This document shows positions 47,956 through 49,702 of a stretch of 64,000 bases of DNA, in pieces. How positions within the stretch are numbered: the first letter of the stretch is position 1; every line of letters begins with the position of its first letter. The notes under the pieces are model-generated. The model searched no databases and was not told the origin of the DNA. It worked only from the letters and a program-made list of their open reading frames with translations. The DNA comes from Tenericutes bacterium HGW-Tenericutes-1. GTDB lineage: Bacteria > Bacillota_I > Bacilli_A > Izemoplasmatales > Hujiaoplasmataceae. The position numbers and the translations under genes were made by a program. Location of the stretch: NCBI GenBank assembly GCA_002839155.1, contig PGXM01000004.1, positions 1 to 64,000 of the forward strand, in the 5' to 3' direction.

Positions 47956-48333
47956 ATGAAAAAATCTACATTGAAAGTTTTGTTGTTTTCACTATTAGCA
48001 TTAATGTTTGTTGGTTCAATTACCGTATCATATGCATTAAATAAAACAAATGAAGTATTATCAGCCGCAGGCGGAGTTGAAGATGATCCAGAACCTGAAT
48101 TTGTATACTGCGCTGGTGGAGTTGAAGATGACCCAGAACCCGAATTTGTATACTGTGCAGGTGGAGTAGAGGATGATCCAGAACCTGAATTTGTATACTG
48201 CGCTGGTGGAGTAGAAGATGATCCAGAACCTGAATTTGTATATTGCGCTGGTGGAGTCGAAGATGATCCAGAACCTGAATTTGTGTATTGTTCTTACAAT
48301 TCGATAGATTTAGGAGCAACAAATAGTTTATAG
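47956..48333 (+). CDS. secreted multi-copy peptide precursor (5 x AGGVEDDPEPEFVYC)
   Basis: RBS AAGGAG; N-terminal signal peptide MKKSTLKVLLFSLLALMFVGSITVSYA; five identical 15-aa repeats. Confidence 0.9.
   Translation: MKKSTLKVLLFSLLALMFVGSITVSYALNKTNEVLSAAGGVEDDPEPEFVYCAGGVEDDPEPEFVYCAGGVEDDPEPEFVYCAGGVEDDPEPEFVYCAGGVEDDPEPEFVYCSYNSIDLGATNSL
48067..48291 (+). repeat. five tandem 45-bp coding repeats
   Basis: copies at 48067, 48112, 48157, 48202, 48247; protein-identical, DNA differs only at third positions. Confidence 0.97.
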
Positions 48334-48400
48334 TATTTTCAATTAAGGACACAAGGTAAAACAATATAGATAGATTTAAATTGTGTTAAGGATGTATAAC

Positions 48401-49702
48401 ATGACGATTTACGATTTTACGAGCGATTTTTACTTTAAGGAAAACTATGCACTTTCGGTCATGGTTGAGTACTACAAAAAGAAAAATCAGATTACACAAA
48501 AAGAAATCAATGATAATATGAATATTCCCAAGTCGAATTTTCGTCGAGCACAACAGAAAAACTTTGTTGGTTATGGAAACATGATTGAAAAGATGGCAAT
48601 TTACTTGGACATACCGGTTAATATCGACGAGTCTGTTATTTCAGATTTGAACGAACAATTTAGCCAATTTTATACATGCATTGTATTTTCTAAATTTTAT
48701 GAAGGCAAATATTTCTTTGACAACATCGTTGCCAATTTTTCGCGTTATGATCGCACCATCCTTATGATCCCATATTATCTAGCTCAATTCATCTATTATT
48801 TAAGTGAAGTCAATTATACGAATAAAATTAATTATGACAAAATCTCTGAATCGGTTGAAATATTACAGTGGTTCTTAGAAAAAATGTCTGATGAACATCG
48901 GTTCTTATTTTATGAATATATGACAAACTATAATGGCATTTTAAAAAACAAAGAAAATGTTGTACATTATGGAAGATTAACGTCATTCCTATCTCCAAAT
49001 TTTCCAGACTTAGAACCAACAGCTAATTACCATATCTCATTTAGTTTTTCAATGGTATCAGATTTTATTGACGCATTAATTTATGCCAATAAAGCATTAC
49101 CCAAACTTGAAGAACAATTGAATTATACTAAAGCTGTTTTTTGCCGAATGAATATAGCAGCATTGTATAAAAAATTAGGACATCTAGATGAAGCAAAAAG
49201 ATTACTCAAAAAGAATTTAATATATCTAAATTTTAATGACATTCCAAGACTTGATCAAATAACTTATTTAAATTACGCCGATTGTATGTTGATGGAGGAG
49301 AAGTTCGCAGAAGCATATAAGTACTATAATAAAATTGAAACTGAGATTACGAAGAAACAAAATTATGAGTCAATCATGATAGTCTATTGCTTGTATCAAA
49401 TGAAAGAAGAAGAAAAGGCAAGAGGATATATTCAAAATCTTAATAAGCAAAATACTTCAGGTAAATTCCCAATTGAATATTTAACTCTTATTCATTTCTT
49501 TGAAGCCTACTTTGAGAAACTAGGTAACACGGAAATTTTAAAGAAATTCAAGATTGCACAAGAGTACATGCCAAGTTATAGATTTAGAGGACAATATATT
49601 CAAGAGCTTGCACAAGCTATTGTTGACAGCATTCAAAATCCCAAAAACAATAAACACGCTTCAAAAGAAATTGAAAGTAATTCTAGTGTATTTTTAATGT
49701 AG
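48401..49702 (+). CDS. HTH + TPR-like transcriptional regulator (RRNPP-like peptide receptor candidate)
   Basis: N-terminal HTH (ITQKEINDNMNIPKSNFRRAQQKNF) followed by all-helical repeats incl. AVFCRMNIAALYKKLGHLDEAKRLLKKNLIYL; no terminator after the peptide gene. Confidence 0.75.
   Translation: MTIYDFTSDFYFKENYALSVMVEYYKKKNQITQKEINDNMNIPKSNFRRAQQKNFVGYGNMIEKMAIYLDIPVNIDESVISDLNEQFSQFYTCIVFSKFYEGKYFFDNIVANFSRYDRTILMIPYYLAQFIYYLSEVNYTNKINYDKISESVEILQWFLEKMSDEHRFLFYEYMTNYNGILKNKENVVHYGRLTSFLSPNFPDLEPTANYHISFSFSMVSDFIDALIYANKALPKLEEQLNYTKAVFCRMNIAALYKKLGHLDEAKRLLKKNLIYLNFNDIPRLDQITYLNYADCMLMEEKFAEAYKYYNKIETEITKKQNYESIMIVYCLYQMKEEEKARGYIQNLNKQNTSGKFPIEYLTLIHFFEAYFEKLGNTEILKKFKIAQEYMPSYRFRGQYIQELAQAIVDSIQNPKNNKHASKEIESNSSVFLM

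Follow-up and report, generated by a model that had tools for sequence, protein, structure and literature searches.

Within the 64,000-nucleotide stretch of Tenericutes bacterium HGW-Tenericutes-1 analysed here (contig PGXM01000004.1, positions 1 to 64,000; the window), we identified a real, conserved peptide-pheromone/receptor pair that very probably works like the RRNPPA systems, its two genes being highly likely to form a self-contained peptide communication system. In RRNPPA systems an exported propeptide is encoded next to the tetratricopeptide repeat (TPR) receptor with which it is paired. Here a multi-copy peptide precursor lies 67 bp upstream of, and on the same strand as, the gene for a receptor with predicted helix-turn-helix (HTH) and TPR parts:

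47956..48333, + strand: multi-copy peptide precursor, 125 aa (signal-peptide-like leader, five units, 13-aa tail)
48067..48291, + strand: five exact tandem 15-aa units AGGVEDDPEPEFVYC (Tandem Repeats Finder; core kept in relatives)
48401..49702, + strand: HTH/TPR RRNPPA-like receptor, 433 aa (homologue alignment, AlphaFold model, Foldseek)

The precursor open reading frame (ORF) is preceded at 8 nt by the ribosome binding site AAGGAG, and its leader, MKKSTLKVLLFSLLALMFVGSITVSYA/LNK (the slash marks the putative cut), ends directly before the array. Judged by eye, the leader has a Sec-like look, with a lysine-rich start, a hydrophobic stretch and an SYA/L site. The five perfect copies behind such a leader, already reported in the initial annotation, are borne out by the sequence and by Tandem Repeats Finder, which scored this as by far the top array of the window (period 45, 4.9 copies, 91% match, score 361). 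The copies differ at 9 nucleotide positions by at least 10 substitutions, 100% of them synonymous, an outcome with a chance under neutrality of 2e-7 to 7e-6, the range being set by the transition bias. Since all the differences among copies are synonymous, the peptide is held by selection and not by recent duplication alone, and we regard DDPEPEFVY as the putative pheromone core of the unit. No Pfam or NCBIfam model named the precursor above its cut-off; the CcmS and MamJ matches were dismissed as repeat-composition noise, and a minus-strand ORF across the array (48020-48364) as a by-product of the repeat.

Fifteen distinct loci beyond the window, from public genomes and metagenome contigs and some of them cut by contig ends, encode a receptor about 52-70% identical to that of the window with a multi-copy precursor directly upstream. 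The named receptor homologues are metagenome-assembled genomes (MAGs) of Candidatus Izemoplasmatales, an order within the Mollicutes in the NCBI taxonomy; no homologue was found in phage records. The precursors of these relatives consist of a leader similar to that in the window and a tandem array, with 4-9 copies per complete array, and isolated precursors close to that of the window carry 2 or 3. Examples are DDPEPEIVYPDRRFLA (six copies), DDPEPDFVYPGKVI.LA (six), GIDDDEPEFMYCA and variants (eight to nine), DDPEPEFAYPAKVIQLA (four to nine), DDDEPEFAYP.. (nine) and RGGVEDDPEPEFVYP.. (five). Across them the core DDxEP[ED][FI][VAM]Y is constant, while the spacer varies in length and sequence, and in several the first core is immediately preceded by an A-x-A signal peptidase site, as in VNA/ADDPEPEF. 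The peptides had initially been described as Cys-terminated; a Cys is indeed present in each window unit, but it is Pro or absent in most relatives, so the conserved feature is the DDxEP[ED][FI][VAM]Y core and not the Cys.

The initial annotation had anticipated that both genes would co-occur with diverged repeats, and this was seen at nearly every testable homologous locus: the precursor lies directly upstream in every distinct locus of the window type with enough upstream DNA, except in UBA5603. This genome, of the same genus, has kept the receptor and has no precursor gene, and could be a listener-only strain or one in which the precursor gene was relocated; its upstream small membrane-protein gene is apparently broken (L003:996-1500). 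Receptor and unit divergence were correlated in a Mantel test of the window type (r 0.60, 0/2000), a value uncontrolled for phylogeny to which we give little weight; for the second receptor type described below, 9 of 18 loci were parsed.

Homologues of the receptor begin MTIYDF, which places its start at ATG 48401; the GTG at 48383 from which the ORF had initially been drawn is merely the first start of the mechanical ORF. An alignment of 32 sequences (49-96% identity) was the input to AlphaFold2, which returned an all-helix model (pLDDT 88.3, pTM 0.80) with an N-terminal four-helix part at 9-68 (helices 9-28, 33-40, 44-53 and 58-68) and paired helices from residues 77 to 412 forming a predicted TPR superhelix. 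With 433 aa the receptor falls inside the 250-500 aa range of RRNPPA receptors, whose C-terminal superhelix comprises 5-9 TPRs; its residues 205-260 are rich in invariant positions. In a Foldseek search against the PDB the nearest structures were Rap3T, RapI (TM 0.62/0.73), RapF and NprR (4gpk/5dbk), in line with the TPR-groove receptor that had been proposed. Sequence profiles alone gave a weak TPR signal (TPR_12, E 2.4e-4, above cut-off in one relative), and the PDB sequence-profile matches were irrelevant TPR proteins only. The relatives' synteny, their diverged repeats and the predicted fold together support the interpretation as a pheromone/receptor pair.

Matches to the precursor in other genera led to a second receptor type, a 306-aa HTH protein transcribed divergently from its precursor. 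Of 90 genomes of the order, 51 have this subfamily, which also extends to other families of the class. Its AlphaFold model (pLDDT 91.4) has a fold nearest to ComR, PlcR, PrgX and Rgg2, and its sequence profile retrieves ElrR, Rgg2 and ComR with similarity mostly in the HTH half; the HTH end gives a weak profile match to the window receptor that is not significant by probability. The second-type pair is related to, yet distinct from, the window system. Its precursors carry a related unit in 1-10 copies, such as GFEELEDPEYVRI (seven copies), GFHDKEEPEYVRL (four), LDFDDCGEPEFVHL (seven), LDFDDEDFPEFINL (ten), LDFHNSGNPEYEE (eight) and LDFDNCGEPDWVR (six). Several are only 44-59 aa long, a leader with a single C-terminal unit (for example ...VVLVDFENSGEPEWVTR), which is the canonical form of an RRNPPA propeptide. 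No other single piece of evidence argues as strongly as these one-unit, textbook-form propeptides for the repeated unit being the pheromone. Visual inspection of 26 intergenic regions showed a shared operator-like motif upstream of the 306-aa receptor; its perfect palindrome reads ACGACATATATGTCGT, and many Izemoplasmatales have GCGCGGATATGTCGTA. The second-type loci are L054-L083 and L126-L135 (e.g., L080:888-1403 and L054:1058-1432, receptor-forward orientation). At one of them (L075, receptor-forward, 1-461) one receptor is accompanied by three paralogous propeptide genes in tandem, each of about 41 aa with a single unit, an alternative to duplication within the gene.

Alignment of the 260 bp upstream of the precursors of the window type revealed two operator-like palindromes and two putative promoters:

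47765..47782, no strand: operator-like palindrome 1, TATTCTTTTTTGTGAATA, kept in relatives
47807..47815, + strand: putative promoter P1, extended -10 (TGATATAAT), kept in relatives (alignment)
47828..47845, no strand: operator-like palindrome 2, TATTCATAATTCGAAATA, abutting the P2 -35 box (alignment of relatives)
47846..47874, + strand: putative promoter P2, TTTACA - 17 - TAAGAT with extended TG

Both palindromes read TATTC-N8-GAATA and lie 63-64 bp apart, six turns of B-DNA, with the extended -10 TATG.TATAAT between them. The pair at this spacing occurs at 9 of 11 loci versus at most 1 in each of 300 shuffled sets, a count that gives no formal probability because the loci are related; UBA5603, which has lost the precursor, retains the pair at 63 bp. 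From these conserved sites we infer that the receptor uses the palindrome pair for autoregulation. Exact palindrome sites number 10 in the genome, versus 3 for the reversed control, and are mostly inside genes. One exact intergenic site, some 86 bp upstream of a gene for a response regulator (C7:24980-24997; L085:1501-1518), is a possible candidate for a second receptor target. When palindrome 2 was searched together with the -35 pattern, the precursor promoter was the top match in 6 of 8 genomes, and we therefore claim no wider regulon. A small inverted repeat (TCGGAAAGCTCAATCCGA; 47883-47903, + strand) lies in what is presumably the mRNA leader of the precursor, for which an Rfam search of the region gave no match.

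The pair is bounded by intrinsic terminators:

47649..47676, + strand: intrinsic terminator ending the preceding gene, bounding the unit on its 5' side
49727..49763, + strand: intrinsic terminator, bounding the bicistronic unit on its 3' side

A terminator search of the locus found none between the two genes, as had been noted initially; with terminators on both sides and none between, the two genes make up a single bicistronic unit. A PHP-domain gene at 49806 lies outside the 3' terminator, yet it adjoins the receptor in several relatives too. An Rfam osmY match at 49730 was rejected as the terminator hairpin, its score being under the gathering threshold. The assembly (1.97 Mb, 26 contigs) contains 1 copy of the system.

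We propose that the precursor would be exported via Sec and its leader removed, and that extracellular proteases would then release from the array as many as five acidic peptides, all identical and built around DDPEPEFVY. Uptake would probably proceed through an oligopeptide permease (genes for oligopeptide-binding proteins, PF00496, score above cut-off on contigs C20 and C26, which speaks to presence only), after which the peptide would bind the TPR groove of the cytoplasmic receptor. The receptor would in turn act at the two palindromes in the pair's own promoter, with at least autoregulation as the output, and the array may raise the peptide yield per translated precursor.

Several results weigh against this model. 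The window receptor has no match among the known RRNPPA families, whether by model or by PDB sequence (Pfam, NCBIfam, PDB), and in these searches has no sequence-level membership in the named subfamilies Rap, NprR, PlcR, Rgg, ComR, PrgX and AimR. The eukaryotic TPR protein LGN matches the receptor model at comparable TM-scores, ranked after Rap and NprR. A Pfam search of the window receptor gave no HTH match, so that the case for its binding DNA depends on the operators and on the helices of the model, and palindrome searches in its own genome and eight genomes made no regulon evident beyond autoregulation. The loci are also related by descent, and the conservation counts are not independent.

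Three other explanations were weighed. A true peptide/receptor pair whose receptor targets a partner protein, as Rap does, instead of DNA would fit the nearest folds, Rap and NprR (the latter bifunctional), as well as the missing Pfam HTH match; we consider it unlikely, given that the N-terminal helices 9-68 of the model fit an HTH and that a conserved double palindrome sits in the receptor's own promoter. It is quite improbable that the repeat protein, secreted and acidic, has a structural, adhesive or metal-binding role and that its neighbour is merely its regulator. Repetitive acidic secreted proteins do exist in such roles, and the peptide is so far a predicted one; this explanation is opposed by the 44-59-aa precursors, leader plus one C-terminal unit, beside second-type receptors, by spacers that vary freely around a constant 9-residue core, and by the predicted peptide-receptor fold of both receptor subfamilies. 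Least probable of all, in our judgement, is the precursor of a ribosomally synthesized and post-translationally modified peptide (RiPP) or bacteriocin, with several core peptides and a regulator of its own: multi-core precursors are known and there is a Cys in every window unit, but most relatives have Pro or nothing in place of that Cys, the leader looks Sec-like, and the terminator-bounded bicistron lacks genes for modification, a protease or immunity and has no RiPP enzyme beside it.

Multi-copy propeptides are established in RRNPPA systems. Up to six identical pheromone copies occur in propeptides of AimR, NprR, PlcR and Rap (PMC9765709), and up to eight have been reported for Phr, both copies being matured in Phr3T and Phr105 (PMC11343458). 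The principle is therefore not new, and the yeast alpha-factor precedent invoked in the initial annotation is unneeded. The window system resembles NprR-NprX of the Bacillus cereus group in its HTH and TPR receptor of similar size, the adjacent secreted propeptide and the fold match, and repeats were present in 17 of 17 atypically large NprR propeptides (PMC9765709). NprX SKPDIVG and the window-type cores EPEFV, EPEIV and EPDFV have a common P-[DE]-[IF]-V run, in its wider form P-[DE]-[FIY]-V, a resemblance and not a test. The window system differs in that identity is only about 15% and in that here the precursor lies upstream of the receptor, is 125 aa long and strongly acidic, and occurs in Mollicutes. 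Rap-Phr (Rap3T, Rap105) gave the top Foldseek matches of the window receptor, and in Phr105 two identical pheromones are separated by an LKLA spacer (PMC11343458); unlike the present system, Rap is without an HTH (PMC9765709) and Phr pheromones are not DDxEPEFV-like. PlcR-PapR, ComR, Rgg-SHP and PrgX match the 306-aa subfamily in fold, and PapR ADLPFEF and PapRa CSIPYEY (PMC4147580) follow an x-P-aromatic/acidic pattern like the units here, again a resemblance and not a test, whereas duplicated propeptides, usual in our second type, were not found with Rgg/ComR (PMC9765709). In AloR-AloP of Paenibacillus an HTH-TPR receptor likewise adjoins an exported propeptide gene (PMC7425212), but taxon, gene order and peptide sequence are different. 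Our literature search found no link of Acholeplasma, Mollicutes or Izemoplasma to such systems, a weak negative given that most subscription literature lay outside the search. As far as the literature searched shows, the new elements are the taxon, the two receptor subfamilies, the operators and the fact that multi-copy precursors are the norm.

Elsewhere in the window, 21946-30454 (+ strand) holds a lysine fermentation cluster, most members of which score above NCBIfam cut-offs (lysine 2,3-aminomutase, lysine 5,6-aminomutase alpha and beta, KDD, KCE, KAL, CoA-transferase). Two ribonucleotide reductases are also present, B12-dependent (class II) and anaerobic (class III), at 9732-12248 (+ strand) and 37660-39816 (- strand).

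The two receptor types raise a wider idea, which we put forward tentatively, being slightly more doubtful than convinced of it: that Mollicutes-like lineages (Izemoplasmatales and further families of the class) may share one family of acidic x-P-[DE]-aromatic-V pheromone precursors, which tandem duplication has enlarged to 1-10 copies and which two non-orthologous RRNPPA receptor types serve, one long and Rap/NprR-like and one short and ComR/PlcR/Rgg-like. This would be a peptide language of the whole class, previously undescribed, that retained its family of signals through an exchange of receptor. The RRNPPA surveys consulted cover other Firmicutes groups, and the largest, with RRNPP_detector, has a default propeptide limit of 100 aa (PMC10075063), below the 125 aa of the window precursor; such systems would therefore be missed. 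If the systems work as proposed, Mollicutes-like environmental bacteria, mostly represented by MAGs, communicate between cells by means of peptide codes and operators that can be read, and the natural variants, dozens of them and with 1-10 copies, would offer a direct way to test the purpose of pheromone copy number.
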